Shown piece after piece: positions 14,021 to 45,929 of a DNA stretch of 46,749 bases; the first letter of the stretch is position 1, and every line of letters begins with the position of its first letter. The stretch is from an uncultured Oscillospiraceae bacterium (lineage in GTDB: Bacteria > Bacillota > Clostridia > Oscillospirales > Oscillospiraceae), in contig CALXDC010000017.1 in assembly GCA_944386975.1 (NCBI GenBank), positions 1-46,749 of the forward strand. The letters are read 5' to 3'. The notes beneath the pieces are model-generated. The model had not been told where the DNA came from. It saw only the letters and a program-made list of their open reading frames with translations, and did no database searches. Made by a program: the position numbers and the translations under genes.

Positions 14021-14475
14021 TGCTTCATTTCGTTGTAAACGGCAAGGAGACGCAGCTGGAAGTTGCCGACGGCGACTTGCTGCTGGATGTTTTGCGAGAC
14101 CGGCTTGGGCTGCGCTCGGTCAAGCGAGGATGTGAAACCGGTGATTGCGGGGCCTGCACAGTGCTGATAGACGGCCTGCCGGTGGATTCCTGCATCTATC
14201 CCGCCTTTCGTGCGGAGGGAAAGCACATTTTGACGGTGGAGGGGCTGGGGACGCCCGGCAATCTGCATCCGCTGCAAAAAAATTTCAGAGAGCTGCTTGC
14301 TGCGCAGTGCGGTTTTTGCACGCCGGGAATGCTGCTGACGGCAAAGGCCCTGCTGGATCGCTGCAAATCCCCCTCCGAAGAGGAGATTCGGCAGCACATT
14401 TACGGAAACCTCTGCCGCTGCACGGGGTATCAGAAAATCGTGGAAGCCATCCGGAAGACAAGCGCAGAACAGTAG
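14017..14475 (+). CDS. Molybdenum hydroxylase [2Fe-2S] subunit (CoxS/XdhC type)
   Basis: A 152-residue iron-sulfur subunit. The plant-ferredoxin-like cluster site is GCETGDCGACTV plus a later cysteine in VDSC. The second, all-helical cluster site is QCGFCTPGM and NLCRCTGY. All eight expected cysteines are visible. ATG 14017 overlaps the previous stop; ATG 14020 is an equally possible start. It carries electrons from the Mo site to FAD. The length is normal for the family. Confidence 0.92.
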   Translation: MMLHFVVNGKETQLEVADGDLLLDVLRDRLGLRSVKRGCETGDCGACTVLIDGLPVDSCIYPAFRAEGKHILTVEGLGTPGNLHPLQKNFRELLAAQCGFCTPGMLLTAKALLDRCKSPSEEEIRQHIYGNLCRCTGYQKIVEAIRKTSAEQ

Positions 14476-14485
14476 GAGAACAGCC

Positions 14486-27595: not shown

Positions 27596-28468
27596 TTACG
27601 GAGAATCCGGCGGAAAACCACCTTCAGACTGGGACAGAAGGCGTTTGGCGCGCAGGTAGATCGGCCGGTCGATCATGGTGCCATGCAGACTGACTGCTCC
27701 CGCGCCGCGGCGAATTCCCTCTTCGTAGGCAGAGACGACGCCGCGCGCCCAGTCCATATTCTCGCCGGTATCGCTATAGACACTGTTGAGCACTGAAACT
27801 TGTTTGGGGTGGATACAGAATCCGCCCTCACACCCGAGTAGTTTTGCCTCCTCTGCAGAGCGGCGGAAGGCCGGCAGATTCTGAAACTCCGCTACGCTGC
27901 CCAACAGGCCCAAAGGAGCAATCCGCCAAGCCTTGCAGCACAAAATCATGTGGGATAACGGGAAAAGAAACGCTTTTTCCATGGCCGGCCGGTCGATCCC
28001 GTACTCCCGGCACAGATCCTCCGTACCCAGCATCATTGCCTCTGTCCGGGAGGAGGCACCAGCCAGCTCTTCCATGTGCAGTACGCCGCGGGGCGTTTCC
28101 ACCAGCAGGATAAGAGACAGCGCTCCTACGGCCATGCCGGCTTTTGCTTCCAGGTCGTCCAGCAGAGCGGAGACCCGTACCACGCATCCGGCGTCTTCCA
28201 CTTTGGGAAGAACGACGCCTCGCAGCTCAGGACAGACGACGGCCTGTAAATCTGCCTCCAGAGAGCTGTCATTGTTGACCCGGACATAAACCGGACAGGA
28301 GTTGGAGGAGATCAGCTGGATGGCCTCGCGGGCGCCTGCTCTTGCCTGCGGCTTCTGGTTTGGGGAGACGGCGTCCTCCAGATCCAGCATGACGGCATCG
28401 GCGCCGTACAGGTGCGCCTTTTGAACAAATTTTGTCACATTAGCCGGCATCATCAAAAGAGAGCGCAT
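27596..28468 (-). CDS. CitE/HpcH-family CoA-ester lyase
   Basis: A 290-residue TIM-barrel lyase of the citrate-lyase beta/malyl-CoA lyase group. Landmarks are RSLLMMPANVTKFVQKA at the N-terminus, VMLDLEDAVSPNQK (metal-binding aspartate and glutamate region, about residues 28-41), the arginine in VYVRVND and the glutamate in LLVETPRGV. Family members cleave 3-hydroxyacyl-CoA esters such as malyl- or citramalyl-CoA into acetyl- or propionyl-CoA plus an oxo-acid. ATG 28468 is 2 nt after the aminotransferase stop. It is the last gene of the GntR-controlled operon. No citrate lyase alpha, gamma or ligase gene is nearby, so true citrate lyase is unlikely. Confidence 0.82.
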   Translation of the reverse strand: MRSLLMMPANVTKFVQKAHLYGADAVMLDLEDAVSPNQKPQARAGAREAIQLISSNSCPVYVRVNNDSSLEADLQAVVCPELRGVVLPKVEDAGCVVRVSALLDDLEAKAGMAVGALSLILLVETPRGVLHMEELAGASSRTEAMMLGTEDLCREYGIDRPAMEKAFLFPLSHMILCCKAWRIAPLGLLGSVAEFQNLPAFRRSAEEAKLLGCEGGFCIHPKQVSVLNSVYSDTGENMDWARGVVSAYEEGIRRGAGAVSLHGTMIDRPIYLRAKRLLSQSEGGFPPDSP

Positions 28469-28470
28469 GT

Positions 28471-29838
28471 TCAAACCTGCATCTCCCCCCCTACGGCCTG
28501 GGCAACAGCTTCCCGGAAAATGGAAAGTCCTGCCTCCATCTGAAGGTCGGTGATTGTGAGGGGGTAGAGGAACCGGATGACGTTGCCGCGGGCTCCGGCT
28601 CGCATAAGGAGAAGCCCCTTCGAGACGGCGATAGAAATAATCGTATTCACAAGATTCGGATTTGGCGCTTTGCTTGCCCGGTCCGTTACGAATTCCACCC
28701 CGATCATGGAGCCGCAGCCCCGGATGTCACCAACCTGCTGGGTGGACTCATACAAGGGGGCCAATCCCCGGTGGACCATCGTCGCCAATTCGGTGGCCCG
28801 GCAGGTTAGTTTTTCCCGCTGGATGAGGTCAATTACCTGACATGCAGCGGCACAGGCCACGGCATTTCCGCTGAAGGTTCCGCCGATTACGCCGTGAGGT
28901 ACGGCGTCCATGATATGCCTGCCCGCCGTTACAGCGCCCAAGGGAAGCCCGCCGGCAAAGGATTTGGCACAGGCCAGAATGTCGGGAGCGCATCCCGCTT
29001 CCTCCCAGTAATCCGATACGAACATGCGCCCGCTTCTGGCAAAACCGCACTGTACCTCATCCGCAACCAGCAGGATTCCGTGCATATCGCAGAGTGCGCG
29101 AACAGCTTTTACCCACGCCAGCGGAGCGGGAACAATGCCTCCTTCGCCCTGAACAGGTTCTACCACGATGGCGGCGGTGCTCTCCGGAGGGGTTCCCTCC
29201 AAAAACAGCTCCTCCAGCCGGTGGAGATAAAAAAGAATCGCGTCGTCGTCCGTCATGCCGGCGGGCTTTCGGTACAAATTGGGAAAATCCGCACGGAACA
29301 CACCGTCAGGAAAGGGACCCATTCCAAGTGCGTAGCTTTTTTTGGCTGTCATGGCCATGGTCAGAGAGGTACGGCCGTGGTATGCGCCGGAAAAAACGAT
29401 CACATTGGGGCGCCTGGTATAAGCCTTGGCGATTTTGACCGCATTCTCAATGGACTCCGCTCCGCTGTTGACCAGCATGGTTTGTTTTTCAGCGCCGCGG
29501 ACTGGTACTATCTCATTCATGCGCTCAATGCAGCGGATGTATGCAGGGTGAGTAACGACAGCCATCATGGAGTGGAGATATTGCTCCGACTGTTCCTGTA
29601 TCGCCCGCACGACGTCTCTGTTGCAATGGCCGACGTTCAAAACGCCGGTTCCGCCGGTGAAATCGAGAAAGCGGTTTCCGTCCATATCCTCTATCATAGC
29701 GCCGGCTCCGCGTTTGATGACAATGGGATAATCCGAGAGGATAGCGTGGGGCAGAGCGCGTGCACAGCGCTCCAGCCACAGTTTGCTCTGAGCTCCTGGA
29801 AGGGGACCGGTTACATTCGGCAACGAATCCCGCAGCAT
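28471..29838 (-). CDS. Class III aminotransferase (omega-amino acid type)
   Basis: A 455-residue PLP enzyme of the GABA/beta-alanine/ornithine aminotransferase class. Visible features are FLDFTGGTGVLNVGH near the N-terminus, VNSGAESIENAVKIA (phosphate loop), FSGAYHGRTSLTM, EPVQGEGG, VADEVQCGFARSG with the PLP aspartate, and the Schiff-base lysine in CAKSFAGGLPLGAV. It moves an omega-amino group to an oxo-acid, making a semialdehyde. The gene just upstream encodes a CoA-acylating aldehyde dehydrogenase, the logical next step. Both substrate and product are unknown. Confidence 0.88.
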   Translation of the reverse strand: MLRDSLPNVTGPLPGAQSKLWLERCARALPHAILSDYPIVIKRGAGAMIEDMDGNRFLDFTGGTGVLNVGHCNRDVVRAIQEQSEQYLHSMMAVVTHPAYIRCIERMNEIVPVRGAEKQTMLVNSGAESIENAVKIAKAYTRRPNVIVFSGAYHGRTSLTMAMTAKKSYALGMGPFPDGVFRADFPNLYRKPAGMTDDDAILFYLHRLEELFLEGTPPESTAAIVVEPVQGEGGIVPAPLAWVKAVRALCDMHGILLVADEVQCGFARSGRMFVSDYWEEAGCAPDILACAKSFAGGLPLGAVTAGRHIMDAVPHGVIGGTFSGNAVACAAACQVIDLIQREKLTCRATELATMVHRGLAPLYESTQQVGDIRGCGSMIGVEFVTDRASKAPNPNLVNTIISIAVSKGLLLMRAGARGNVIRFLYPLTITDLQMEAGLSIFREAVAQAVGGEMQV

Positions 29839-29862
29839 GTAGATTCCTCCTCTCCGCTGCCC

Positions 29863-31293
29863 TCACTGAAGGGAAAATTCGGGATATCCGGTAAAGCGGG
29901 ATGGATCTGCCAGAAAAGCACCGAACACCTCCGCTTCCGAAGGGGCAGTTTTAGCGGGCATCATTCGGTAGACCCAGGTGGTGTTGTGGTAATGGTGGAA
30001 CGTGTTGTTTTCCGAGTAGGCGTTGCCGCCCCAACTTCCGCAGCCCAGAGAGAAGGTCCAGGGCATTTTGTTGTTATAGGCACCGGCGTTGTTCAATCCG
30101 GTACAGGTGTTCACAGCTACCCGGGAGGTACGGGTGCCGGCAGCGAAGCGCCGGATATGCGTTTCATCCGCGGAGTGGATGGCACAGGAGTGCCCGGCGC
30201 CGGATATTGCATGAATACGGTTGACCAGATCAATAGCATCTTCGAGACCGCTGACCTTCCACAGCGCCACGACGGGAGACAGCTTTTCTTCTGTCATGAG
30301 GTTTTCTCTGGTTGGATCGGTTTCTTCTGTCATCAGGAAACTGCAGCTGTCCGGTACGGAGAAGCCTGCCAGCGCCGCAATATGCTGGGGAGAGTGGATG
30401 ATCGCGTCTACATTCAGCTTTCCCTTTTTCCAAATCGTGTTGACCAGCTGGTCTCGCTGTGCAGGTGTGCAGAGGTAACCGCCCTCTGCTTGGAGCGCCG
30501 CCAACATATCGTGATATACCGCCTGATGAATGGCGACAGAATTCTCAGTGGAGCAGCCTGCGCCCCAATCATTGGTTTCTGCCAGCATAATTCCGTGGGC
30601 TGCTTCCGCCAGATCTGCGGTAGCATCTATGAAGGAGACGGAATTGCCGGCGCCTACGCCGAAGGCCGGTGTGCCGGAGGAGTAGGCGGCTTTGACCATG
30701 GCGGCGCCCCCGGTGGCGACGACAAAATCTGCTTTTTCCATCAAAAGATTGGTCAGTGCCAATGAGGGCTGCTCCACACATTGAACCAGATCCATGGGAT
30801 ATCCCATACGCCGCAGGAGCTCGCGGATATCCTGGACGACAAAATTGGTCACCTTCTTTGTGCGGGGGTGGGGGGAGAAAATCATGGCGTCTTTGGACAT
30901 AAGACCAAAAATCGTCTGACAGGCCACCAGTCCGCAGGGGACCGTCATAGGAACAAGGGACGCTACCACACCGAGGGGTTTGGCAATTTTTAAAAGATAT
31001 CCATCGGGGTCCTCCTCAATGATCCCTACGGTTTTGACGCTGTCCAGCTGGGCGGCCAACCCCAGAGGCCGCGCCGTATTTCTGGCCAGCTTACTGGCCA
31101 GAACGCCGCTGCCGCCGTTCTCCTCAAAAAGCGCCGTGGACCAGACTTCTGCCCGTTTATAGGCCAAATAGGCCACAGCCTTGGCGAGCGCCCGGACGTC
31201 TTCCTGTGTCAGCGGAGCAATCTGATCCATGGCCGCTCTCGCCTTGTGGAGCATGCCCTGAATGTAGGCAGTCTGTTCTATTGTATACTCCAT
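29863..31293 (-). CDS. CoA-acylating aldehyde dehydrogenase
   Basis: A 476-residue enzyme of the EutE/PduP/sulfoacetaldehyde dehydrogenase group, converting an aldehyde plus CoA and NAD(P) to an acyl-CoA. The catalytic cysteine lies in DWGAGCSTENSVA (about residue 239), and the preceding GGAAMVKAAYSSGTPAFGVG is the nucleotide-binding region of acylating enzymes. No glutamate of the hydrolytic ALDH type is seen. ATG 31293 has AAAGGTGG eight bases upstream. An alternative ATG 31320, overlapping the previous stop, would add nine residues. Adjacent to a class III aminotransferase, it probably handles the semialdehyde that enzyme produces. Confidence 0.85.
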   Translation of the reverse strand: MEYTIEQTAYIQGMLHKARAAMDQIAPLTQEDVRALAKAVAYLAYKRAEVWSTALFEENGGSGVLASKLARNTARPLGLAAQLDSVKTVGIIEEDPDGYLLKIAKPLGVVASLVPMTVPCGLVACQTIFGLMSKDAMIFSPHPRTKKVTNFVVQDIRELLRRMGYPMDLVQCVEQPSLALTNLLMEKADFVVATGGAAMVKAAYSSGTPAFGVGAGNSVSFIDATADLAEAAHGIMLAETNDWGAGCSTENSVAIHQAVYHDMLAALQAEGGYLCTPAQRDQLVNTIWKKGKLNVDAIIHSPQHIAALAGFSVPDSCSFLMTEETDPTRENLMTEEKLSPVVALWKVSGLEDAIDLVNRIHAISGAGHSCAIHSADETHIRRFAAGTRTSRVAVNTCTGLNNAGAYNNKMPWTFSLGCGSWGGNAYSENNTFHHYHNTTWVYRMMPAKTAPSEAEVFGAFLADPSRFTGYPEFSLQ

Positions 31294-31316
31294 TGTACAA
31301 TCCACCTTTCCCTTCG

Positions 31317-31913
31317 TCATACGCCGATTTCTTTGTGAATGGCCGCCTGCTGTTTTAAAATCTGCTGCCGAACCCCTTCGTACAGGCTGGTTCCGCCGGC
31401 ATCCATTCCCACAATCAGAGGACCCAACTCCTGGAATCGGATTCGGACGCCCACATTGGCGGCCAGATCATCCCAGAAACGACCCTCTACCTTCTGCACG
31501 GATTTGGTGCACAGCTGACTGCATCCACCGATCTGTGCCAGATAAACGCAGCCGACTTCCTGCATGGCCCGGAGTGTCTCCTGATCCATGCCCCCTTTGC
31601 CGATAATGGCGCGAACCTTGAAAGCCCGGATGAATTCCGGTTCATAGGGATTGACGCCGGCGCTGGTGGACGCCCCCATGAAGCGGCAATGCAGCTGGCT
31701 GTCGTCGCCGGTCAGGCAGGTATAACAGTGGTAGATGGCAATATTTTCCTCGGCAAATGGGACGGCCTTCCCTTGCGCCTTGTAGGAGAGCGCTCTCTGA
31801 TGAGCCGGCCCCAACAGTTGCAGCACCTCTCCGGTCAGATAGACAATGTCGCCCGCATGCAGCTGCCGGACGGCGGCTTCATCCAGAGGAAGAGTTAGAT
31901 GTCTTTCCGTCAT
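31317..31913 (-). CDS. Class I fumarase-type hydratase, beta subunit
   Basis: A 198-residue protein matching the C-terminal domain of class I (iron-sulfur) fumarases and TtdB of L-tartrate dehydratase. Motifs include VYLTGEVLQLLGPAHQRAL, a GASTSAGVNPYEPEF segment and KGGMDQETLRAM. With the upstream alpha subunit it forms a two-subunit [4Fe-4S] hydratase acting on dicarboxylates such as fumarate, mesaconate or tartrate. ATG 31913 has AAAGGGGG upstream and is preferred over a longer frame overlapping the alpha subunit. Confidence 0.88.
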   Translation of the reverse strand: MTERHLTLPLDEAAVRQLHAGDIVYLTGEVLQLLGPAHQRALSYKAQGKAVPFAEENIAIYHCYTCLTGDDSQLHCRFMGASTSAGVNPYEPEFIRAFKVRAIIGKGGMDQETLRAMQEVGCVYLAQIGGCSQLCTKSVQKVEGRFWDDLAANVGVRIRFQELGPLIVGMDAGGTSLYEGVRQQILKQQAAIHKEIGV

Positions 31914-31926
31914 AAAAGAGCCCCCT

Positions 31927-32799
31927 TTATAGATACTGAACGGTACCGTCATTGAACAGCCGCGCCGTTTTCCGATGGATCAGCCAACAGCCGATCTTAA
32001 CAGCAACCGGGAGAATGTACGTTCCGGTGTTGGAGTATTCGATATTGACAGCCAGACAGGTGGTGTTCCCTCCTAACCCCATCGGGCCGATTCCCAGTGC
32101 ATTGACGTAGCCGAGAAGTTCCTCCTCCAGTTCCTGGATCATGGGGTCCGGGTGACGCTGATCCAAGGGGCGCATGACGGCACGCTTTGCCAGCTGGTTT
32201 ACTGACTCAAACATTCCGCCCAGGCCTACGCCGATGATCATGGGCGGACAGGGCTTGCTGCCGGCCTCCGCTACTGTGTCCACAATAAATTTTTTTACCT
32301 CCTGCATCGGCGCGGAGCCGGTGAACATCTTTACGGCACTGCACAGGTCGCCGCCGCCCCCCACCGGTTGGGCGGTGATCTCCAGATATTCGGCGTCCGG
32401 CAGGACGTCCCAATGGATGATGGGGGTTCCGGGGCCGGTGCCGTTTCCGGAGTTTGCTTTTGTAATGGGATGTACGCTGTGCGGGATTGCCGGAAGCTCC
32501 CTTGTCCCCGCTGCGGTTCCGTTGTGGACCGCGCGGACAATGTCTCCGTCAATTTTGGCGTGGCCGCCGATGACAATATGATAGGAGGCGATGCCGGTGT
32601 CCTGACAAATCACATTTTGTTCCCGCTGGGCGATGTCCGCATTTTCCATAATCTTTCGCAGCTGCAGCCGGGCCAGCTCGCTGGTTTCTGCTGCCTCCAT
32701 CTCACACAGCCGCCGGCGGATGTCTCCCGGAAGTTCCACCAGAGAGGCGCAGTATAGCTGCTTGGCGGCTTCTGCAATGACCTTTTCGGAGATGCTCAT
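31927..32799 (-). CDS. Class I fumarase-type hydratase, alpha subunit
   Basis: A 290-residue iron-sulfur subunit matching the N-terminal domain of class I fumarases and TtdA. The three cysteines expected to bind the [4Fe-4S] cluster appear in NVICQDTGIA (about residue 65), KPCPPMIIGVG (about 185) and GGNTTCLAVNIEY (about 266). The enzyme adds or removes water across a dicarboxylate double bond. In this operon, with a PrpD-like and a CitE-like enzyme, a mesaconase-like role (mesaconate to citramalate) is one option, but fumarate or tartrate cannot be excluded. Confidence 0.88.
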   Translation of the reverse strand: MSISEKVIAEAAKQLYCASLVELPGDIRRRLCEMEAAETSELARLQLRKIMENADIAQREQNVICQDTGIASYHIVIGGHAKIDGDIVRAVHNGTAAGTRELPAIPHSVHPITKANSGNGTGPGTPIIHWDVLPDAEYLEITAQPVGGGGDLCSAVKMFTGSAPMQEVKKFIVDTVAEAGSKPCPPMIIGVGLGGMFESVNQLAKRAVMRPLDQRHPDPMIQELEEELLGYVNALGIGPMGLGGNTTCLAVNIEYSNTGTYILPVAVKIGCWLIHRKTARLFNDGTVQYL

Positions 32800-32829
32800 A
32801 TTCCTTTGTCCTCCTTTCTGTGGAGCGGC

Positions 32830-33867
32830 TTAAAGAGCCGCTTCCGCCATTTCTCGATCGAAGCGGGCGCGCAGCTTCGCTTTTTCCTCCGGGGAGAGCC
32901 AGGCAGCGTCGATAGCCTGTCTGGCAATGCCGGTCATTTCTCTGCGGCCTACGCCCAGATAGCGGGCGGCCAGAGCGTATTCCCGGTTGAGATCCGTGCC
33001 TACGATAGCCGGGTCGTCTGTATTGATGGAAAGCCACATGCCGCAGTCGTACATCTGCTTGATGATATGGCCTGTAGGCCGCAGCCAGCCCTGACGGCTG
33101 GATACGGTGGGACATACCGCGAAGTGGACATGATTTTCCGCCAAACGGTATGCCAGAGAGGCATCCTCCGCAGCCCGGTACCCGTGATCAATCCGCTCCC
33201 CCTCCAAGCGGGTCAGGGCAGTGATCACATTCTGGGCAGGACCGTGTTCGCCGGCGTGTACCGTACGGTGGAGGCCTTCCGACTTTGCCAGAGAATAGGC
33301 CTCGGCGAAATCCTCGGGAGGTCCGTATCCCTCAAAGTCCTCCAGACCAATCCCGATCACATACGGAGAGGGGTAGGCAATGGCTTGACGTACAATATGG
33401 GTTGCGATGGGGGGCGGCAGCTGCCGATTCAATCCGAGAATCAGCCGGGCCTGTACGCCGAAATCCCGCTCTGCCCGACGAATTCCGTCGGAAAAACCGT
33501 CAATGATCTGTTGGTAAGAGGAGCCGTATAACAGATGGTAGGAGGTCTGTACCGCCAGCTCGGAATATAGCACATGTTCCTCCCGGTATGCGCGTTCCAC
33601 ACACTCATAGATAACCCGGCTATAGTCCTCTTCTGTTTGGATGGACGCCGCAATATGGGAGAGAATTTCAACAAAACGTTGGAAGTTATAGTAACGGTAA
33701 AGTTCCTCGGGAGTTCGGCTATCCAGCGCAACGCCGTTTTTATCGGCAAGAGAGAGAAGGGTATCCGCCGGTACCATTCCCAAAATGTGGCTATGCAGGT
33801 GCACCTTCGGCACTTTGGCGTAATAATCGAGTTCTTCCTGGGAGATGTGGGACAGCGTTGAAGCCAT
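32830..33867 (-). CDS. Adenosine-deaminase-family amidohydrolase
   Basis: A 345-residue metal-dependent hydrolase of the ADA group. Zinc and catalytic elements are present: HLHSH near residue 22, HAGEHG (about 214), RIDHGYRA (about 233) and NTDDPAIVG (about 288). Two family hallmarks deviate. The usual HLHLEG after the first beta strand reads HLHSHILG, and the CPxSN motif reads CPTVSS. These positions shape the purine pocket, so the substrate may not be adenosine. Deamination of another amino-heterocycle is plausible. ATG 33867 follows GAGGAGGG. It is embedded in a catabolic operon with an importer and no other nucleoside genes. Confidence 0.8.
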   Translation of the reverse strand: MASTLSHISQEELDYYAKVPKVHLHSHILGMVPADTLLSLADKNGVALDSRTPEELYRYYNFQRFVEILSHIAASIQTEEDYSRVIYECVERAYREEHVLYSELAVQTSYHLLYGSSYQQIIDGFSDGIRRAERDFGVQARLILGLNRQLPPPIATHIVRQAIAYPSPYVIGIGLEDFEGYGPPEDFAEAYSLAKSEGLHRTVHAGEHGPAQNVITALTRLEGERIDHGYRAAEDASLAYRLAENHVHFAVCPTVSSRQGWLRPTGHIIKQMYDCGMWLSINTDDPAIVGTDLNREYALAARYLGVGRREMTGIARQAIDAAWLSPEEKAKLRARFDREMAEAAL

Positions 33868-33881
33868 ATCAGACCCTCCTC

Positions 33882-35339
33882 TCAATTGCTGCGCAGTCCG
33901 GCCAGAAGCTCAGAGACAGACGGCTCCTCTCCAATGTGCAGAAGACGGTTCGCCATCTGCTCCATTCGGCTTGTCCATTCCGCACATCCGGGCTGGACGG
34001 CCTTGGCCAATGTGATAAATTTTTCCTTCAGGCACTGCTCTGTGGGCGCAACTGCTTCGTTCCAGAAGTCGCCCAACGCATATTCGGTATTCCCTTCATA
34101 GACAGTTTCTCCGCAGGTTACTACGGCTCTGCTGGGCACTTTCAAAGGCGCGTCGGGCTGTCCCCAGCGGAGATAGTCGCCCCAGGCCTCTGCTTTCTGC
34201 AGAGCAGGATGCAGGTGGATGTGCACCTTTTCCCGCAAGGCGGCAGTCTTTTTGTCGTATACAATCCTGGGATCAAACCAATCCGGTCCCGCCGGTACGC
34301 CCATCAGCAGCATGGCGGCGGAGTGGGGGACGCTGAAGCTGGCGTCCATTTCGGTGTTATCCCCGATGATGGGAGAGGCGTTCAGACAACAGGAGGAGGC
34401 GGAGTAGAGGTCGATGCGGTCGATGGCCTCCAGAGAGATCTCCTTTCCGCCCACTGCCTGATCCAGCGCTGTCAGGGCATAGTGGAACCAGCGGCAGCTG
34501 GGCCACAGCTTGATAGACGTCCTGGTAATCCGCCAGTCCTCCCCGAGGCCGTCTGTGATGGCGTGGAAATTGGCCTGGGGGGCATTTCCCGCCACCTGGG
34601 CAAGGCTTACATCCTGTTCAAAGATGCCGAGGGTACCCGTAATCCCGGACTTGGCCATCCAGGCGGCCATGAGACCGGCCTGGGTATTGAAGCCGCAGTC
34701 CTCATATTTAATGGTGGGCAGAGTGGAGCGCCGGCGGCCTTCTTCCCAGATTCCACCGGAATTGGAAGGCAGATACATGGCACAAATGCCAAGCGCGTTT
34801 TCTACCTGGGCGGCATCCAGCTTCAGACAGACGCAAGCTGCCGCACAGGCGGCATATGTACCCAGAATCGGCCCGGGAAAGTTCCATCCGGTGACGTTCC
34901 CGTCCCGATCCACTTTCAGTTGTACGCCCATGTAGTTGCCGGCTCTGGCGCCCACCTCGTAGCCGATGGTAAAGGCCCGCAGCAGATCCATGCCGCTGAG
35001 GCGGCAGGTGTTGGCCAGGGCCAGGGAGGCGCCAAGGGCAGCGTTGGCATGGTGCCCCAGAATCAAATAGGTCTCATCCTGATCGAGAATGTTGATCAGG
35101 CGGCCATTGGCATAGGCAGCAACTACCGGAGGCACTGACAGGTCGGTGCCGAGAATGGACTCTGTCCCGATCCCCTGGGATCGGGCGAAGGAGGTGACCA
35201 CCTTGGCCTGTTCCGATGTTATGGCGCCTAAAGCACACCCTACAGAGTCCAGAATTAACCGGCTGGCAAAATCCAGAACGGCAGGGGGAATCTCCTTCGT
35301 CTCACTGATAAAGCGGGAAAGTATCTGGGTGTTTGTCAT
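33882..35339 (-). CDS. MmgE/PrpD-family protein
   Basis: A 485-residue member of the MmgE/PrpD family, which includes 2-methylcitrate dehydratase, cis-aconitate decarboxylase and iminodisuccinate epimerase. The N-terminal all-helical domain shows ASRLILDSVGCALGA and the substrate loop region DQDETYLILGHHANAALGASLALA. The C-terminal alpha/beta domain runs from about residue 270. The cofactor-free family handles tricarboxylic or amino-dicarboxylic acids. Its ATG overlaps the stop of the ABC ATPase gene (ATGA). The precise reaction is not inferable. Confidence 0.85.
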   Translation of the reverse strand: MTNTQILSRFISETKEIPPAVLDFASRLILDSVGCALGAITSEQAKVVTSFARSQGIGTESILGTDLSVPPVVAAYANGRLINILDQDETYLILGHHANAALGASLALANTCRLSGMDLLRAFTIGYEVGARAGNYMGVQLKVDRDGNVTGWNFPGPILGTYAACAAACVCLKLDAAQVENALGICAMYLPSNSGGIWEEGRRRSTLPTIKYEDCGFNTQAGLMAAWMAKSGITGTLGIFEQDVSLAQVAGNAPQANFHAITDGLGEDWRITRTSIKLWPSCRWFHYALTALDQAVGGKEISLEAIDRIDLYSASSCCLNASPIIGDNTEMDASFSVPHSAAMLLMGVPAGPDWFDPRIVYDKKTAALREKVHIHLHPALQKAEAWGDYLRWGQPDAPLKVPSRAVVTCGETVYEGNTEYALGDFWNEAVAPTEQCLKEKFITLAKAVQPGCAEWTSRMEQMANRLLHIGEEPSVSELLAGLRSN

Positions 35340-36109
35340 GTGTTTCCCTCCTCGGAAGATTCTTTTTTCCCAAAGGCATGCTTCAGCCGCGCCTCATATT
35401 TGACAAATTCGGTGGTCATGGTGATCTCCGGCGTCCGGGGACGCGGCAGGTCGATGGAAATCACCTCCTGCACTCTGGAAGGGGACGGCGTCATCACATA
35501 GACCCGGTCTGAGAGATAGACTGCCTCTTTGATATCGTGGGTCACCAGAATAACGGTCCATTTCTGCTTCTGCCAGATGTCCAGAAGCCAATCCTGCAGC
35601 TCCGTGCGCGTCATGGAATCCAATGCACCGAAGGGTTCGTCCAATAGGAGGACAGGGCGGTCCTGCACAACGGTGCGGAGTAGCGAAGCTCGCTGGCGCA
35701 TGCCGCCGGACAGCTGTGCCGGATATAGCTCCTGTGTTCCGTCGATGCCGAAGATGGAAAAATAGGGCTCAACCTTCTCCCGTGCCTCTTTTTTCTTCAT
35801 CCCTGCAATTTGCAGCGCCAAAATGGTGTTGTCCGCCACCTTTCTCCAGGGGAATAGCAGATCCTTTTGGGGCATCAACGCACAGGCCTCCGTCTTGCCG
35901 GTCACATCCTTGCCCTGTACCATTACGCTGCCGCCGTCTGGCGGCAGGATACCGGCAATGATGTTGAACAATGTGGACTTTCCACATCCGCTGGGGCCGA
36001 TAATGGAAACAAATTCCCGTTCGTGCACCTCGAGATTGACGTCTCGCAGGGCCTCAAAAGGGACGCCGTTTTTATGAAATACTTTTGAGATTTGTTTGAC
36101 TTCCAACAT
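35336..36109 (-). CDS. ABC transporter ATPase (SsuB/TauB/ThiZ type)
   Basis: A 257-residue ATPase of the nitrate/sulfonate/taurine/HMP-pyrimidine importer class. Walker A is GPSGCGKSTL (about residues 38-47), the Q-loop LMPQKDLLFPW, the signature LSGGMRQRASL, Walker B VLLLDEPFGALD and the switch histidine in LVTHD. It powers uptake with the permease and lipoprotein encoded just before it. Confidence 0.93.
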   Translation of the reverse strand: MLEVKQISKVFHKNGVPFEALRDVNLEVHEREFVSIIGPSGCGKSTLFNIIAGILPPDGGSVMVQGKDVTGKTEACALMPQKDLLFPWRKVADNTILALQIAGMKKKEAREKVEPYFSIFGIDGTQELYPAQLSGGMRQRASLLRTVVQDRPVLLLDEPFGALDSMTRTELQDWLLDIWQKQKWTVILVTHDIKEAVYLSDRVYVMTPSPSRVQEVISIDLPRPRTPEITMTTEFVKYEARLKHAFGKKESSEEGNT

Positions 36110-36140
36110 GGTGCTTCACCTCATTAGCAGCAATTGGCGA

Positions 36141-36989
36141 TTACTTTTTCGCGCCGGCCTTTGCCACGGCGGCCCAGGGGATAAATAGCCGCCGCAAAAT
36201 GGCCACGACGCCGAAGAGAATCAGGCTGACAGCGGAAATGATGATGACGGAGCCCAGTACCAGATCCGTTCGAAAGTCATTTTTGCAGATCTGCATAAAG
36301 ATCCCCAGGCCCCGCTCGGCACCGACATATTCGCCGAAAATAGCCGCAGTTACCGACCATGTGATGGCAATCCGAAGTCCGGTAAAGAAAGAGGGCAGCG
36401 ATGCGGGTAGACGGACATAATAGAATTGCTGCCATTTCGTGGCGCCCATGGAGCGGAGAAGATTGACGGTTTCCGGTTCGGTGGAGTCGAAGCCGTCTGT
36501 CAACGCAACGGCAATGGAAAAAAATGTCACCAGAACAATGACAATAATTTTAGGAAACAGTCCATAGCCAAACCAGATGACCATCAGCGGTGCGATGACG
36601 ATAACAGGTACGGTCTGGGAGACTACCAGAATCGGATAGACAAATTTTCGTACGGTGGGCAGGAAATCGCAGAGAACGGAGATGAATACCGCCACCAGAA
36701 TGGTTGCGCCCAGGCCGATCAACGTCTCCTGCAGGGTAGGGATCAGATGCATCCAGAATTTATCCCGATTGACCAGAAGCATACGAAATACCCGGGTGGG
36801 GCTGGGAAGCACATCCACGCTGACATGGGTTACATTGACTGCCACTTCCCAGATCACGAAAACGAACAGAATTCCCAGGACGGCAGGTGCACCGTTTCGA
36901 ACTGCTTGCTGAAGCCCGCCCTTTTTGGAGGCGGATACATTCAAACTGCGCACGGAATCGCACCGCACGGATGTCTTGTTATTTTTCAT
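36141..36989 (-). CDS. ABC transporter permease (SsuC/TauC/ThiX type)
   Basis: A 282-residue permease with about six membrane segments. The BPD_transp_1 EAA loop is LLRSMGATKWQQFYYVRLPASLPSFFTGL (about residues 185-213), and GEYVGAERGLGIFMQ is the family's following segment. It lies between the binding protein and ATPase genes with gaps of 24 and 31 bp. Confidence 0.92.
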   Translation of the reverse strand: MKNNKTSVRCDSVRSLNVSASKKGGLQQAVRNGAPAVLGILFVFVIWEVAVNVTHVSVDVLPSPTRVFRMLLVNRDKFWMHLIPTLQETLIGLGATILVAVFISVLCDFLPTVRKFVYPILVVSQTVPVIVIAPLMVIWFGYGLFPKIIVIVLVTFFSIAVALTDGFDSTEPETVNLLRSMGATKWQQFYYVRLPASLPSFFTGLRIAITWSVTAAIFGEYVGAERGLGIFMQICKNDFRTDLVLGSVIIISAVSLILFGVVAILRRLFIPWAAVAKAGAKK

Positions 36990-37013
36990 AGTATCACCAC
37001 TGCTATACTTTCA

Positions 37014-38042
37014 TCACTCCGGGAGATAATCGTTGGTGACATATTGGGTAATGTCAGGAAATTCCTCCAGAACGGCGCCATCCCCGTCCACTAAGAAGCC
37101 GTACTGCATCCAAAAATCAGCACGATCCTGCCATACCTCCAGATCCATCACGCAGATTTCGCCCTTGTCATTACAAAGGAAGTTGTTGAATTCTGTCACA
37201 GAAGCCACAAGGAAATCGCGATCTGCCTCTGCGCCTCCTTCGATCAACATGTCGGCCACTTCCTCCGGATGGTCCAGCTGGTATTCATAGCCGCGTACCA
37301 GCGCACGCATAAATTTTTTTGCTGCTTCCGGATTTTCTGTCAGGAATTTGTTGTTGGCGGTAACGATGACAGCATACTGGGTGGGAATCTCCTCATAATC
37401 CGAGAATTTGAAATAGCGCATCTCATGATCCTTGTATTCGGCGTTGATGGTATCGGAATAGGAGAAGAACAGCGCTGCATCGACCTGGCCGGAATATACG
37501 GCTTCGTAGGAAGAGGTCCCCAAGGTGACATTTTCAAATTCGCCTTTTCCCCCGTCAGCCATAATGAGAGCGCTCAAAAGGTAGGGCTCCTTGGTGCTGC
37601 CGTAGCCGCCGTATACCTTTCCGTCCAGATCTGCCGGGCGAAAAATGTTGCTGTCGTCTCGGACACCGATCCATACCGGGTCAGACAGGTTCAGCGCACC
37701 CAGCGCCTTGAAATCCCGTTCTGCGGCAATGTTTACCAGAGCGTCGTCAATGCTGGCAAAATAGGCCATATCTACTGTCCCTGCTGTGAGCAGACTTTCG
37801 GCCCGGGTTTGAGCAGACCATGGCACGACAGAGACCTCCAGTCCCTCTTCTTCAAAATATCCCAGTTGCTGTGCAGCGATCAGGCCGCCGTGGTCGGCCC
37901 CCAGCGTGTAGTTGAGTGCAATGCTGATTTCTGTTTTTCCTTCCGAGGAGGGGTCGCCGGCGTCATTTGCGCATGAGGTGCAAACGACGGTGAGCAGCAG
38001 ACACAGGAGCAAAAAACAACCCGTTAGGCTTTTGCGTTTCAT
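37014..38042 (-). CDS. ABC transporter binding lipoprotein, NMT1/THI5-like
   Basis: A 342-residue lipoprotein. The signal peptide ends in a lipobox-like VCTSC (cysteine about residue 25). The mature part opens with ISIALNYTLGADHGGLIAAQ and LGYFEEEGLEVSVVPW, the pattern of NMT1/THI5-like proteins, which includes binders of hydroxymethylpyrimidine (ThiY) as well as sulfonate and nitrate binders. The ADHGGL stretch recalls the TNHTGL of pyrimidine binders. It defines the substrate of the whole operon and is its first gene. RBS AAGGAGGA precedes ATG 38042. Confidence 0.88.
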   Translation of the reverse strand: MKRKSLTGCFLLLCLLLTVVCTSCANDAGDPSSEGKTEISIALNYTLGADHGGLIAAQQLGYFEEEGLEVSVVPWSAQTRAESLLTAGTVDMAYFASIDDALVNIAAERDFKALGALNLSDPVWIGVRDDSNIFRPADLDGKVYGGYGSTKEPYLLSALIMADGGKGEFENVTLGTSSYEAVYSGQVDAALFFSYSDTINAEYKDHEMRYFKFSDYEEIPTQYAVIVTANNKFLTENPEAAKKFMRALVRGYEYQLDHPEEVADMLIEGGAEADRDFLVASVTEFNNFLCNDKGEICVMDLEVWQDRADFWMQYGFLVDGDGAVLEEFPDITQYVTNDYLPE

Positions 38043-38404: not shown

Positions 38405-39151
38405 TTACGCGTAACTGCGCATGAGATTGAAGCGGATGTAATGGGTATCATAGTATACGATACCGTGGAGAATCGGATGGTTATCCTGATCGTAGGCGAT
38501 GCCGGAGGTACGGAGGAGAGCCTCGTTTTCCATCAGTACATAGGCAGAAGTATCGATTCTCATCTCTTCCTTGGTTACTGCTTGATATTCCGTACGGGCT
38601 CTGGAAGCAACCAAACCGCCAAATTGATACAAGACGGTAAAAAACGAGTTCTGTTCCCAATCTGTTCGGGAAGGGAGTGTTGCAAAAAAGGATTCGGGAA
38701 TGCGGTCGATGCTGAGAATTGTCGGATGGCAGTCGGCGTAATGGAGCTGCTCCACGGTAATAACAGAGCTGTCCGGATCCAGCTGAAAAATCTCTGCCAT
38801 ATAGGAAGGAATCGGTTCACGCTTTACGTCAAGCAGCTGCACTTTGGCGGGATACCCGCTCTGTTCAATAATTTTGCAAAATTCATTGGCAACGCTGAGA
38901 TTGACGTTGATCTGCAGAGCGGCTTTGTTGATAAACGTTCCTCTTCCATGAATCCGGATAACCAAACCTTCCTGCTCCAAATCGTCCAGCACCCGGCGGA
39001 TAGTAACGCGGCTTACGCCAAACTTCTCTGCCATCACGGATTCTGCCGGCAATTTCTCCACAGATTTTTCGTTCAGCGTGTAAATATACTCTTTCAGAAT
39101 CTTTTTTACATCATGACAAAGGGTTCTCTTTACAACAGGTTGAAAATCCAT
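38405..39151 (-). CDS. GntR-family regulator, HutC subfamily (UTRA domain)
   Basis: A 248-residue regulator. The N-terminal winged helix (about residues 10-75) includes ESVMAEKFGVSRVTIRRVL and the wing GLVIRIHGRGTFI. The C-terminal UTRA effector domain (about 90-240) ends in an HGIVYYDTHYIRFNLMR motif. It reads in the same direction as the catabolic operon and sits directly upstream of it. Matching operators at both promoters indicate it represses itself and the operon until an effector binds. RBS CGGAGGG precedes ATG 39151. Confidence 0.92.
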   Translation of the reverse strand: MDFQPVVKRTLCHDVKKILKEYIYTLNEKSVEKLPAESVMAEKFGVSRVTIRRVLDDLEQEGLVIRIHGRGTFINKAALQINVNLSVANEFCKIIEQSGYPAKVQLLDVKREPIPSYMAEIFQLDPDSSVITVEQLHYADCHPTILSIDRIPESFFATLPSRTDWEQNSFFTVLYQFGGLVASRARTEYQAVTKEEMRIDTSAYVLMENEALLRTSGIAYDQDNHPILHGIVYYDTHYIRFNLMRSYA

Positions 39152-39364: not shown

Positions 39365-39403
39365 GCCCCTCAGACGCCTGCCAGGTGTCTGAGGGGCGAT
39401 TTT
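39365..39403. terminator. Terminator downstream of the RraA-type gene
   Basis: A 16-bp stem with a single G-T pair (39365-39380 with 39382-39397) lies between the RraA-type gene and the GntR gene, both on the - strand. The run of six T residues is on the + strand side, and the - strand tail is CTTCTTCG, so - strand termination may be weaker than the stem suggests. Confidence 0.75.
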
Positions 39404-39423: not shown

Positions 39424-40104
39424 TCAATCCACATACTCCACGCCCAGCTTGGCGAGAGTCTCCTCCACGAAGGGGCGGGGGAAGCCCTTTCCGGCCAGAA
39501 TGCCGGCAATCTGGCCCTCCTCCTTCTTGTGGACTGCGGCGGCCTCCTTGGCCAGAGCCTCGGCCTCGTGGGGCTTGATGACCAGCACGCTGTCGCCGTC
39601 GCCCACCAGAATGTCGCCGGGGCAGATGACCTGGCCCCCCACCGCTACGGGGAAGTTGATCTCACCGGGGCCGTTTTTATAGGGGCCGTTGGGGATGACG
39701 CCCCGAGCGTAGACGGGGAAGTCGGTAAAGGCGGCCAGCTCGTCCCGGTCCCGGACGCAGCCGTCGATAATGAAGCCGGCGATCCCCCGGCTGCGGGCGT
39801 AGGTCACCATGATCTCCCCGCACAGGGCCCGGCTCATGCTGCCTCCGGCGGCGATGACCAGCACGTCCCCGGGCTGGGCCATGTCCAGCGCCTTGTGGAA
39901 CATCAGGTTGTCCCCGGCGGGGCAGCGGACGGTGAAGGCGGTGCCCAGGAGAGGGGAGTGGTTGAGGGGGTTGAGACCGGCGTCCACGGAGGCCATCCGG
40001 TTCATGCAGTCGTCGATGTTGGCCACGGGGATGCCCCGGAAGGCCTCCACCAGACTGGGGTCGGGGCGGTCGATATGAGTTTTGATTCTGCAGCCGATTG
40101 CCAT
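39424..40104 (-). CDS. RraA/HMG-aldolase-family protein
   Basis: A 226-residue RraA-fold protein. The divalent-metal aldolase motif is visible as IDGCVRDRDEL (RD followed two residues later by D/E, about residues 113-123), preceded by the GGSMSRALCGE pyruvate-loop region. This motif marks 4-hydroxy-4-methyl-2-oxoglutarate/4-carboxy-4-hydroxy-2-oxoadipate aldolases and oxaloacetate decarboxylases rather than pure RNase E inhibitors. It would release pyruvate from a 4-hydroxy-2-oxo-acid. ATG 40104 has AAGGAGAA upstream; the longer frame is unlikely. It is divergent from the LysR gene, with overlapping promoter regions. Confidence 0.82.
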   Translation of the reverse strand: MAIGCRIKTHIDRPDPSLVEAFRGIPVANIDDCMNRMASVDAGLNPLNHSPLLGTAFTVRCPAGDNLMFHKALDMAQPGDVLVIAAGGSMSRALCGEIMVTYARSRGIAGFIIDGCVRDRDELAAFTDFPVYARGVIPNGPYKNGPGEINFPVAVGGQVICPGDILVGDGDSVLVIKPHEAEALAKEAAAVHKKEEGQIAGILAGKGFPRPFVEETLAKLGVEYVD

Positions 40105-40157
40105 GCTGTTCTCCTTCTTTCTTGTAATCCTCCGCCCGGAGGGCGGGGCGATGGTTG

Positions 40158-40186
40158 TTGAAAACGGGAAGAAATTCAAGTATACT
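40158..40186 (+). promoter_or_regulatory. Promoter of the LysR gene with overlapping regulator site
   Basis: TTGAAA (40158-40163) and TATACT (40181-40186) are spaced 17 bp. The -10 region lies in the near-palindrome TTCAAGTATACTGAA (40174-40188), which resembles the centre of the LysR box at 42569-42593. This suggests autoregulation and joint control of the divergent RraA-type gene. Confidence 0.7.
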
Positions 40187-40225
40187 GAAAAATAAACCGG
40201 AAAAATCGGGGAAAGGAGCTGCCCT

Positions 40226-41146
40226 ATGGATCTGACCGACGTCGAGATGTTCCTCACCATTGTCCACACCAAGAGCATTTCCAAAACAGCGGACGCCCTC
40301 TTCCTCTCTCAGCCCACCATCAGCCACCGGCTGAAGGCCCTGGAGAAGGAGCTGAACTTTCCGCTGATCGTCCGCAGCAAGGGGTTCAAGCAGATCGAGC
40401 TGACGGCGGAGGGGAACGACTTCATCCCTATCGCCGAGCGGATGCTGACGCTGTGGAAGGAGACCAAGCTGCTGCAGCACAACCGGGACCGCCTGCGGCT
40501 GTCCGTGGGCTGCGCCGACAGCGTGAATATCGCCCTGCTGACCCCCTTCTACCGGCAGCTGCTGCGGCAGGAGCCGGCGCTGGACCTCCACATCCACACC
40601 CGCCAATCCTCCGCCCTCTACGACCTGCTGGACGCCAGGGACATGGATGTGGCCTTTGTGTTCTACCACCTCTACTACAAAAACATCCTCTGCCAGCTGG
40701 TCTACCAGGAGAAGCTGTACCTGGTCCAGTCCCAGCATCCGGCGGTGGCCAAGGCGGTGGTCCACACCGACGAGCTGGACGCCTCCCGGGAGCTCTTCTT
40801 CAAGTGGGACGACCGCTACCAGATCTGGCACAACCAGTGGCTCACCAACTACGGCCGCCCCGCCGCTACCACGGACACCATCACCATGCTGGATCAGCTG
40901 TGGGACAGCGAGGACTACTGGGTCATTGCGCCGGAGTCGGTGATCTGCACCCTCAGCCGGCGGCGGCCGGTCTTTGTCAGCCAGCTGAAAAACCCGCCGC
41001 CCAACCGCCGGTGCTACAAGATCACCCACCGTGCCCCTCTGGCCCCCAGCGCCAGAGCCCTGGAGGTCTTTGAAAGGCGGCTGGGGGAGTATCTGGAGGA
41101 GCTCCACTTCCCCATCCGGCTGGGAGAGGTGTGGCAGGAGGAGTAG
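40226..41146 (+). CDS. LysR-family transcriptional regulator
   Basis: A 306-residue LysR regulator. The N-terminal winged HTH (about residues 1-62) reads DVEMFLTIVHTKSISKTADA and then LFLSQPTISHRLKALEKEL. The C-terminal part (about 90-300) is a periplasmic-binding-like co-inducer domain. It sits between the divergent RraA-type gene and the convergent aminotransferase gene. Matching inverted repeats near its own promoter and in the 42.3-42.8 kb divergent region imply that it controls the whole 39.4-46.7 kb block. Confidence 0.92.
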   Translation: MDLTDVEMFLTIVHTKSISKTADALFLSQPTISHRLKALEKELNFPLIVRSKGFKQIELTAEGNDFIPIAERMLTLWKETKLLQHNRDRLRLSVGCADSVNIALLTPFYRQLLRQEPALDLHIHTRQSSALYDLLDARDMDVAFVFYHLYYKNILCQLVYQEKLYLVQSQHPAVAKAVVHTDELDASRELFFKWDDRYQIWHNQWLTNYGRPAATTDTITMLDQLWDSEDYWVIAPESVICTLSRRRPVFVSQLKNPPPNRRCYKITHRAPLAPSARALEVFERRLGEYLEELHFPIRLGEVWQEE

Positions 41147-42640: not shown

Positions 42641-42786
42641 GACCTCAACAAACCGGTTCCGAGGACTCCGGGGACGTTTTGTTCCCCTGCCGGCAGCGAG
42701 TCTTCGGAAGCGGCGCCGGGATACCCGGCCTGCCCTGCAGCACCATACCGGAAGAGAATGATTTTGTGAGAGTAGGAGTTGAAATT

Positions 42787-44118
42787 ATGGGTGAGAAAAA
42801 AAGAAAGAATTTTGTCAAACGCATGGTGACGGGCCTGATCTGCGGCGTGGTGCTGGGTCTCATCATCTCCCTGGCCAAGCCCTACATGTCCGAGTCCCTG
42901 TGGGGAATCCTCAACCGTATCTTCTTCCAGGACATCACCGTCGACGAGGGCCGCAGCGCCATCGGCCTTTTCTACATCGTCCAGACCGTCTTCACCAACG
43001 CCCTGAAGCTGGCCATCGTGCCGATGGTGTTCTTCTCCATCATCATGTCCGTGTGCGGCATGAACGACATGCGCAAGCTGGGGAGAATTGCAGGCAAGAC
43101 CATCGTCACCTTCGTGCTCTTCTATCTGGCGGCCTGCCTCTTCGCCAGCCTGGTGTCCGAGGCGGTCATCGGCATGGGCGTCTATCATGAGTTCGTCGTG
43201 GACGAGCTGGCCGCAGGCGTTACCGAGGCCACCACCAGCAACATTCTGGTGACCATCGTCAACGCCGTGCCCGACAACCTGATTTCCGCCCTCAGCAGCA
43301 ATAACAAGATGCTGGCGGTGATCACCTGCTCCGTGGTCATCGGCGTGTGCGTGGCCGCTATGGAGAGCAAGATTCAGGTCTTCAAAACCTTCTGCGACGA
43401 GTGCAGCCAGATCACCCAGAAGTTCCTGGACTTCCTCATCATCGCCTGCAGTCCCTTCGCGGTGTTCTGCATGATCACCCGCACCTTCGCCATCTACGGC
43501 ATCGACCAGGTGGGGAATATCTTCTCCTACATCCTGGTCACCATCTGCGTCCTGTTGGTCTACCTCTTCGTGGCCTACCCGGTGGCCCTGGCGGTAATCA
43601 ACAAGGTCAACCCCATGATCTTCATGAAGAAGATGCTGAAGGTGGCCATCATCGCCTTCGGCGCCGCCGCCTCCGCCCCCGCCCTGCCCCTCAACCGGGA
43701 GACCTGCGTGAAGGAGCTGGGCTGCTCCGAGGAGATCACCGATTTCGTTCTCCCCATCGGCATGACCATCAATATGAACGGCACCGCCATCATGCACATC
43801 ATCGGCACCGCCTTCATCGCCACCTGCGCGGGGTTGGATGTGACTCCCATGAACTACCTGACCATGACCCTGCTGGCCATTGCCGCCTCCATGGGTACCC
43901 CGGCCATTCCCGCCGCCGGGTCCGTGATGCTCTACGCCGTTCTCACCGGCGCGGGCTTCAACACCGAGCTGTGCACCCTCATCTACTCCCTGGTGCTGGC
44001 CATGAACAAGCCCTGCGAGATGGTGCTGACCACCCTGAACGTGGTGGGCGACGCCGCCACGGCGGTGATCGTCTCCAAGAGCGAGGGCGAGTTCGACAAG
44101 GAGATCTACAACAGCTGA
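42787..44118 (+). CDS. Dicarboxylate/amino acid:cation symporter (DAACS family)
   Basis: A 443-residue GltP/DctA-type secondary transporter with about eight membrane helices and two re-entrant hairpins. Family motifs are the serine/alanine-rich hairpin AIIAFGAAASAPALPLN (variant of the SSSAATLP hairpin), PIGMTINMNGTAI (helix 7 NMDGT equivalent) and AASMGTPAIPAAGSVM (second hairpin). Such proteins import glutamate, aspartate or C4-dicarboxylates with Na+ or H+. The NMNGT variant replaces the usual aspartate of NMDGT by asparagine, which could change cation or substrate choice. ATG 42787 has TAGGAG upstream. It heads the operon with 5-oxoprolinase, so 5-oxoproline or a relative may be its substrate. 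Confidence 0.88.
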   Translation: MGEKKRKNFVKRMVTGLICGVVLGLIISLAKPYMSESLWGILNRIFFQDITVDEGRSAIGLFYIVQTVFTNALKLAIVPMVFFSIIMSVCGMNDMRKLGRIAGKTIVTFVLFYLAACLFASLVSEAVIGMGVYHEFVVDELAAGVTEATTSNILVTIVNAVPDNLISALSSNNKMLAVITCSVVIGVCVAAMESKIQVFKTFCDECSQITQKFLDFLIIACSPFAVFCMITRTFAIYGIDQVGNIFSYILVTICVLLVYLFVAYPVALAVINKVNPMIFMKKMLKVAIIAFGAAASAPALPLNRETCVKELGCSEEITDFVLPIGMTINMNGTAIMHIIGTAFIATCAGLDVTPMNYLTMTLLAIAASMGTPAIPAAGSVMLYAVLTGAGFNTELCTLIYSLVLAMNKPCEMVLTTLNVVGDAATAVIVSKSEGEFDKEIYNS

Positions 44119-44151
44119 CACACTGCGTCCAGAAACCGGGAGGTGACAGGA

Positions 44152-44880: not shown

Positions 44881-44881
44881 C

Positions 44882-45913: not shown

Positions 45914-45929
45914 GAAGAGGAGGAGCGAC

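Follow-up and report, generated by a model that had tools for sequence, protein, structure and literature searches.

A ten-gene, putatively catabolic operon and its unusual two-subunit iron–sulfur hydratase in an uncultured Oscillospiraceae bacterium

According to the accessible part of PMC12290011, the characterised members of the MmgE/PrpD family have four-carbon 1,4-dicarboxylates as substrates and work by way of an enolate, and mesaconate can be converted to (S)-citramalate by class I fumarases. The acylating dehydrogenase SucD, a relative of the one described here, binds mesaconyl-C1-coenzyme A (CoA) and reduces it with 16% of its succinyl-CoA efficiency (excerpted text of PMC10249356). 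Relatives of these enzymes are encoded side by side in a stretch of 46,749 nucleotides from an uncultured Oscillospiraceae bacterium (the window; contig CALXDC010000017.1, or C17, of a 2.66-Mb draft genome that is 90.5% complete), where ten genes on the minus strand, from 38042 to 27596, combine an ATP-binding cassette (ABC) importer with seven enzyme genes. All of the enzymes come from known families, so the locus is presented here as an orphan operon for catabolism whose hydratase is unusual. Tentatively, and with confidence well short of even, it is read as one inducible catabolic operon that would take a nitrogen compound through a gamma-amino acid and a CoA ester to cleavage by a CitE-type lyase. 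We know of no characterised pathway with this gene set, and searches of open-licence PMC text gave nothing fitting on the set, its intermediates or its substrates beyond the itaconate and methylsuccinate work.

The ten open reading frames (ORFs) are all open and tightly packed, and the preliminary description of ten same-strand genes with tiny gaps or overlaps was confirmed in its coordinates and junctions, as were all of its named families by Pfam. At the nine junctions the spacing lies between a gap of 31 bp and an overlap of 26 bp, and four of them overlap by 4 bp (ATPase/MmgE, MmgE/ADA, FumB/dehydrogenase, and aminotransferase/CitE). The others are gaps of 24 bp (binding protein/permease and dehydrogenase/aminotransferase), 31 bp (permease/ATPase), and 30 bp (ADA/FumA), and the FumA/FumB overlap of 26 bp, which becomes a 13-bp gap from an internal ATG of FumB. 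The ADA gene starts with TTG; counted from the next ATG, its junction with the MmgE gene is a 14-bp gap. A single transcription unit is supported. The GC content of the operon region (0.52–0.60) is similar to that of the flanks, and composition thus gives no sign of recent import. What the DNA itself shows is the gene content and its layout, the protein families, the residues that are kept or lost, and the GABA (gamma-aminobutyrate) type of the aminotransferase.

In the proposed pathway, the importer would take in a small nitrogen compound, which the aminohydrolase of the ADA family, together with the MmgE/PrpD protein, would turn into a gamma-amino acid, probably unsaturated beside the carboxylate (of the 4-aminocrotonate kind, which may carry a 2-methyl group). 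The aminotransferase would convert this amino acid to a semialdehyde and the acylating dehydrogenase would convert the semialdehyde to a CoA ester, while the remodelled hydratase would add water to the carbon bearing the free carboxylate, its substrate being the semialdehyde or the CoA ester, and not a free dicarboxylate. CitE would finally cleave an ester of the malyl-CoA or citramalyl-CoA type to acetyl-CoA and glyoxylate or pyruvate. CitE requires a free acid that carries a C2 hydroxyl and a C4 thioester; from this end the route was read backward through dehydrogenase, aminotransferase, and hydratase, and in this way we infer the step order, the carbon skeleton, and the identity of the hydrated compound. 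The tight one-strand layout, the GABA type of the aminotransferase, the presence elsewhere of related dehydrogenases beside class III aminotransferases, and the action of SucD on mesaconyl-C1-CoA speak for this reading, as do the residues of the hydratase and the lack of a PF02515 match described below. A fully specified version, in which fumaryl- or mesaconyl-C4-CoA (or the semialdehyde) arises from an unsaturated gamma-amino acid and is hydrated for CitE by an arginine-less fumarase relative, downstream of new ADA-family and MmgE/PrpD reactions, would be an undescribed pathway and is offered with little confidence. If true, the pathway would give new reactions to the largely unassigned MmgE/PrpD proteins, ADA-type aminohydrolases, and two-subunit Fe–S hydratases, and would show the bacterium's route from a nitrogen compound to acetyl-CoA; for now, the operon is a promising lead rather than a pathway that has been established.

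The class III aminotransferase (28471..29838, minus strand; Pfam Aminotran_3, 6.5e-109) is of the GABA type, as judged by its relatives, a Selenomonas neighbour, and its residues, which refines the earlier proposal, supported here, of an omega-aminotransferase feeding an acylating dehydrogenase and a CitE-type lyase. It carries R156, E232, K292, and R422 at the positions of R141, E211, K268, and R398 of E. coli GabT, and T64 at that of I50, the roles of these GabT residues being assumed here. Its score against the GABA aminotransferase equivalog TIGR00700 lies below the cut-off (436.8 against 506.65 bits); NCBIfam scores are drawn from the matches listed, which for three of the proteins were the best 25. 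The genome samples searched overlap and comprise a few hundred genomes each, and all tallies count the window's own genome. Aminotransferase relatives at 1e-130 were found in 4 of 291 genomes, the other three at 53–58% identity, and all three of these loci, read by eye, have an iron-dependent alcohol dehydrogenase alongside. The Selenomonas relative (55.6%) adjoins an annotated 4-hydroxybutyrate dehydrogenase, and the aminotransferase locus L138 shows, by eye and without hidden Markov models, genes like 4-hydroxybutyrate CoA-transferase and 4-hydroxybutyryl-CoA dehydratase; a Nicoliella relative (53.2%) has no alcohol or 4-hydroxybutyrate dehydrogenase neighbour.

The CoA-acylating aldehyde dehydrogenase (29863..31320, minus strand; Pfam Aldedh, 1e-23) resembles SauS and malonate-semialdehyde enzymes, its best NCBIfam model being the acylating sulfoacetaldehyde dehydrogenase SauS (NF047625), at 404.5 bits under a cut-off of 600. 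Relatives occur in 7 of 391 genomes at 1e-110 (1 of 120 family genomes at 1e-105), with 40–43% identity at eight places in the six other genomes. Three of these eight places, in two of the six genomes, adjoin a class III aminotransferase that shares about 30% identity with that of the window, and several of the remaining stretches stop at contig ends. One such locus, L031, reads by eye as reductive pyrimidine breakdown, with a dihydropyrimidinase, an NCS1 transporter, a ureidopropionase-kind amidohydrolase, and a dihydropyrimidine-dehydrogenase-like subunit; its aminotransferase is presumably of the beta-alanine/taurine type. Another, L033, also by eye, has a subunit of a CoA-carboxylate decarboxylase and a sodium-pump-like protein. 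In the window protein a serine follows the catalytic Cys256, and in SucD the serine at this place contributes to binding of the far carboxylate of mesaconyl-C1-CoA (excerpted text of PMC10249356).

The CitE-family C–C lyase (27596..28474, minus strand; Pfam HpcH_HpaI, 4.2e-38) is closest among solved structures to the malyl-CoA/beta-methylmalyl-CoA lyase 5ugr (1.9e-30) and to 1sgj (2.7e-27). It belongs to the CitE family and scores below the specific models for citE (TIGR01588, 176.2 against 443.4 bits) and RipC_Ccl (NF038242, 117.8 against 375 bits). CoA transferases of the CaiB type (PF02515) gave no match in the roughly 90%-complete genome, the search being confined to this CoA-transferase family; a CoA ester formed by the dehydrogenase would thus be a natural source of substrate for CitE.

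The hydratase, FumAB, consists of an alpha subunit (31927..32799, minus strand; Pfam Fumerase, 2.1e-77) and a beta subunit (31317..31952, minus strand; Pfam Fumerase_C, 4.5e-20). Among the matches listed, it passes the subfamily-domain model for the Fe–S hydrolyase alpha subunit, TIGR00722 (252.3 against 100.65 bits), and falls just under the cut-off for the fumarate hydratase NF004885 (271.8 against 276 bits). Its residues were compared with those of 12 alpha and 11 beta relatives, found by tblastn in the retrieved loci with the window's own genome excluded. The cluster cysteines C65, C184, and C271 are kept, as in 12 of the 12 alpha relatives, and three arginines are replaced: I105 of the alpha subunit stands where 8 of 12 relatives have arginine, L47 of the beta subunit at the arginine of the RD motif (arginine in 7 of 11), and G99 at that of the TTSxR motif (arginine in all 11). 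E. coli FumA, aligned separately, has all three of the arginines that FumAB lacks. The simplest meaning of this loss would be a substrate without a second free carboxylate, and by these residues the enzyme appears to be neither an ordinary fumarase nor an ordinary mesaconase. With these arginines gone, and with hydration requiring an electron-withdrawing C4 substituent, the amine is a less likely substrate than the semialdehyde or the CoA ester. The same residues, together with the lack of a PF02515 match, weaken an itaconate or mesaconate reading. As a separate observation, plasmids of Roseomonas marmotae (L147) and Paracoccus marcusii (L158) have in common a cluster whose fumarase-like hydratase, again of two subunits, is without two of the three arginines and which also encodes a CaiB/BaiF CoA transferase, a glutathione S-transferase, a carboxymuconolactone decarboxylase family protein, and an alpha/beta hydrolase.

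The ADA-family aminohydrolase (32830..33885, minus strand; Pfam A_deaminase, 2e-69) passes, among the matches listed, the equivalog cut-off of TIGR01430 (aden_deam; 262.7 against 216.55 bits). Its best solved relatives are 3rys (5.6e-42) and 3ou8 (1e-38), which we take to be adenine deaminases, though they are listed as adenosine deaminases. The catalytic positions H31, H33, H210, E213, H234, D290, and D291 are kept, within what we take to be the family motifs HxH, HAGE, RIDHG, and DD. The acidic residue after HxH is lost (L35), where 3rys, 3ou8, and the other ADA-family protein of the genome have glutamate. A role in defence, raised by a PADLOC CARF_ADA match to the ADA part of that model, was dropped in view of the surrounding operon.

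The MmgE/PrpD protein (33882..35339, minus strand; Pfam MmgE_PrpD_N, 9.9e-42) has both the N- and C-terminal Pfam domains of the fold family and matches 2hp3 (2e-20); the NCBIfam PrpD models score below 27 bits, and the protein represents an uncharacterised branch. Of the six residues given for IDS epimerase in the accessible part of PMC12290011 (H85, D88, H99, H150, K198, and K266), four are kept as D86, H96, K211, and K277, and asparagines, N83 and N153, stand at two of the histidines, in an alignment that is poor and uncertain around N153. Among 22 distinct relatives not picked by residue, position 83 is asparagine in 7, histidine in 10, and aspartate in 5. The idea that these asparagines are peculiar to the window protein was accordingly dropped; N83 marks a branch and is given little weight. 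Two loci from same-phylum genomes of one genus (L043 and L045) have an MmgE/PrpD gene with a FumA/FumB-type gene pair on either side.

The importer comprises an NMT1/THI5-like substrate-binding protein (37014..38042; Pfam NMT1, 1.5e-44), a permease (36141..36989; BPD_transp_1, 5.5e-29), and an ATPase (35336..36109; ABC_tran, 3.6e-29), all on the minus strand. The binding protein is of the family used in thiamin and hydroxymethylpyrimidine (HMP) uptake of the ThiXYZ type; its best solved relatives are 4nmy (5.8e-30), described as thiamin-bound in the excerpted text of PMC10586155, and 3ix1 (1.4e-17), which binds formylaminopyrimidine (FAMP), followed by THI5-type proteins. It has serine at the glutamate and tryptophan of the FEGWD segment of 4nmy and tyrosine at an early tryptophan (DW), so the ligand may differ. 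A pyrimidine-like ligand, as suggested earlier, would be compatible with the binding-protein family, and is not proven by it. Among five plasmid relatives, two adjoin YkoF thiamine/HMP-binding genes and one adjoins a gene whose annotation reads aspartate aminotransferase family protein. No Rfam family reached its gathering score in the window, and thus no thiamin pyrophosphate (TPP) riboswitch was seen; the subset of window ORFs that was scanned held no thiamin gene.

MmgE relatives were found in 11 of 200 family genomes at E ≤ 1e-20, where the best one outside the window's own genome has 27% identity, in 6 of 398 phylum genomes at 1e-30, where the one with the best E-value outside it has 29%, and in 1 of 391 class genomes at 1e-40; the binding protein was found in 1 of 196 genomes at 1e-40. 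A scan of genome contigs with the single MmgE protein returned 40 stretches, none of them a relative, and a scan with an MmgE alignment (A1), which yielded a single short pattern, returned 113 stretches, 79 of them relatives. The pattern demanded asparagine at position 83, and these 79 loci were therefore left out of the judgement on that residue. When the ten proteins were compared with the 79 loci by tblastn (E ≤ 1e-6, at least 70 residues), MmgE matched in 78, the ATPase in 25, CitE in 22, and the permease in 3, with no match for the binding protein, deaminase, hydratase subunits, dehydrogenase, or aminotransferase. None of the contexts inspected matched the set, whether around MmgE relatives (Variovorax, Azospirillum, Paracoccus, and L047–L050), dehydrogenase relatives (Shinella, Nocardioides, Ponticoccus, Caballeronia, Azospirillum, and Indioceanicola), the Aminobacter ADA relative, or relatives of the binding protein and hydratase, two of the hydratase records being unannotated. 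Of two congeners, one (G086) has the beta-galactosidase that neighbours the operon in the window, at 65% identity, and the other is without it. The 18,695 bp around this gene in G086, reaching about 15 kb past it, do not contain the operon: the ten proteins gave an ATPase match only (32%), and six other flanking genes of the window gave none. Scans of viral contigs yielded no relatives.

Several points weigh against the proposed pathway. The gene set, whose co-occurrence elsewhere had been proposed as a check, turned up in no other genome among the partial samples; with a few hundred genomes in each, this absence is not a refutation. The part given to the MmgE/PrpD protein is drawn solely from the chemistry of its family. 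The three arginines are presumed to be carboxylate contacts after the Leishmania fumarase structure, for which the literature search gave no confirmation, and four alphaproteobacterial relatives lack the first two of them and keep the third. A fumarase-type pocket may also not admit a CoA ester. Finally, the alpha subunit is the sole PF05681 protein found in the genome, in a search that did not extend to class II fumarases, and FumAB might thus be the fumarase of the cell. This last point would also fit a rather unlikely alternative, a C4/C5 dicarboxylate pathway in which FumAB acts as fumarase or mesaconase to give malate or citramalate, the MmgE/PrpD protein as a dicarboxylate isomerase, and CitE as a citramalyl-CoA lyase as in itaconate and methylsuccinate clusters, with aminotransferase and dehydrogenase forming a branch from GABA to succinyl-CoA that supplies CoA. 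Mesaconate hydration by class I fumarases, the 1,4-dicarboxylate substrates of known MmgE/PrpD enzymes (both from the accessible part of PMC12290011), and the CitE-like genes near MmgE relatives in 22 of 79 loci agree with it; however, the three arginines of FumAB and two histidines of known MmgE enzymes are replaced, PF02515 has no match in the genome, and the deaminase and the THI5-like importer are left unexplained. It is possible, if on balance doubtful, that the unit is a mosaic of adjoining genes recruited for at least two separate functions, as could be suspected from the lack of a second genome with the set and from the differing contexts of the closest relatives of MmgE, dehydrogenase, aminotransferase, binding protein, and hydratase; yet the genes overlap or nearly touch throughout, and the enzymes are chemically complementary.

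Three further explanations start from the nitrogen compound. A modified form of reductive pyrimidine breakdown, whose final stretch would lead through beta-alanine and malonate semialdehyde to malonyl-CoA, is suggested by L031, where a class III aminotransferase and a relative of the acylating dehydrogenase join pyrimidine-breakdown genes by eye, and by the THI5-like importer, but is improbable: dihydropyrimidinase and ureidopropionase are not among the ten genes, the aminotransferase is of the GABA type and only about 30% identical to that of L031, and hydratase, MmgE, and CitE would have no role. Uptake with salvage or breakdown of thiamin or an aminopyrimidine (HMP or aminomethyl-HMP), in which the 4-amino group would be the target of the deaminase, would suit the kinship of the binding protein with 4nmy and 3ix1 and the YkoF neighbours of two of its five plasmid relatives. 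It is nevertheless quite improbable, given the lack of a TPP riboswitch in the window, the changed Glu/Trp positions, the absence of a ring-opening hydrolase from the operon, and a carbon skeleton with no simple route to CitE chemistry. If the compound were an adenine substituted at N6, for instance a cytokinin of the zeatin type, the ADA-like enzyme would free a 4-amino-2-methylbutenyl amine that is oxidised to 4-amino-2-methylcrotonate and converted to citramalyl-CoA; this skeleton fits the limb read backward from CitE, and the kinship of the deaminase with 3rys and 3ou8 and its leucine after HxH point the same way. This chemistry argument remains very improbable as an account of the operon, in which no gene oxidises the side-chain alcohol and the role of MmgE is unclear, and the literature search found no precedent for it.

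A GntR/UTRA regulator gene of the HutC type (38405..39151, minus strand; Pfam UTRA 1.8e-16, GntR 5.6e-15), an addition to the genes first described, lies 362 bp upstream and, judged by position only, is the probable local regulator of the operon. A weak promoter-like match lies at 38384–38356 on the minus strand. Promoter-like matches outnumber the mean of shuffled sequences (15 against 7.9) and terminator-like matches do not (10 against 12.2), neither being proof of function. A strong terminator-like hairpin (39365–39397) separates the GntR gene from an RraA-like protein and a divergent LysR regulator (39424–41146) just upstream; the RraA-like protein is close to models of 4-carboxy-4-hydroxy-2-oxoadipate aldolase/oxaloacetate decarboxylase. 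Farther along, 42679–46688 on the plus strand encodes a sodium:dicarboxylate symporter and, behind it, proteins with carboxyltransferase C/D and A/B domains together with a LamB/YcsF protein; this layout we take to be that of the 5-oxoprolinase PxpABC. At 13055–16798 on the plus strand, three genes encode a molybdenum hydroxylase of the xanthine-dehydrogenase type (flavin adenine dinucleotide, 2Fe–2S, and molybdopterin subunits), which could hydroxylate N-heterocycles; its molybdopterin subunit lies under all 13 NCBIfam cut-offs listed. The region 5170–8380 on the minus strand holds an enolase gene and, directly upstream of it, a second ORF that matches enolase in its C-terminal part only, which looks like a partial duplication, with an IS3-type transposase gene nearby.

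Compared with described systems, FumAB has the two-subunit architecture and three cluster cysteines of class I fumarase, mesaconase, and L-tartrate dehydratase, and differs in carrying I105 (alpha), L47, and G99 (beta) at arginine positions. With fermentative GABA degradation, which proceeds through GABA aminotransferase, 4-hydroxybutyrate dehydrogenase, and 4-hydroxybutyryl-CoA dehydratase, the operon has in common an aminotransferase of the same group (53–58% identity), whereas its semialdehyde would be taken by an acylating dehydrogenase and a CitE lyase, and 4-hydroxybutyrate genes are absent from it. Reductive pyrimidine breakdown of the L031 kind likewise has the pair of aminotransferase and acylating dehydrogenase; in contrast, the operon is without pyrimidine ring-opening enzymes and its aminotransferase is of the GABA type. 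Itaconate and methylsuccinate clusters combine an MmgE/PrpD protein with a CitE-type (citramalyl-CoA) lyase, as here, according to the accessible part of PMC12290011. In contrast to these clusters, the roughly 90%-complete genome gave no match to a CaiB-type CoA transferase, the MmgE/PrpD protein comes from a different branch, and a deaminase, an aminotransferase, and an acylating dehydrogenase have been added to the operon.

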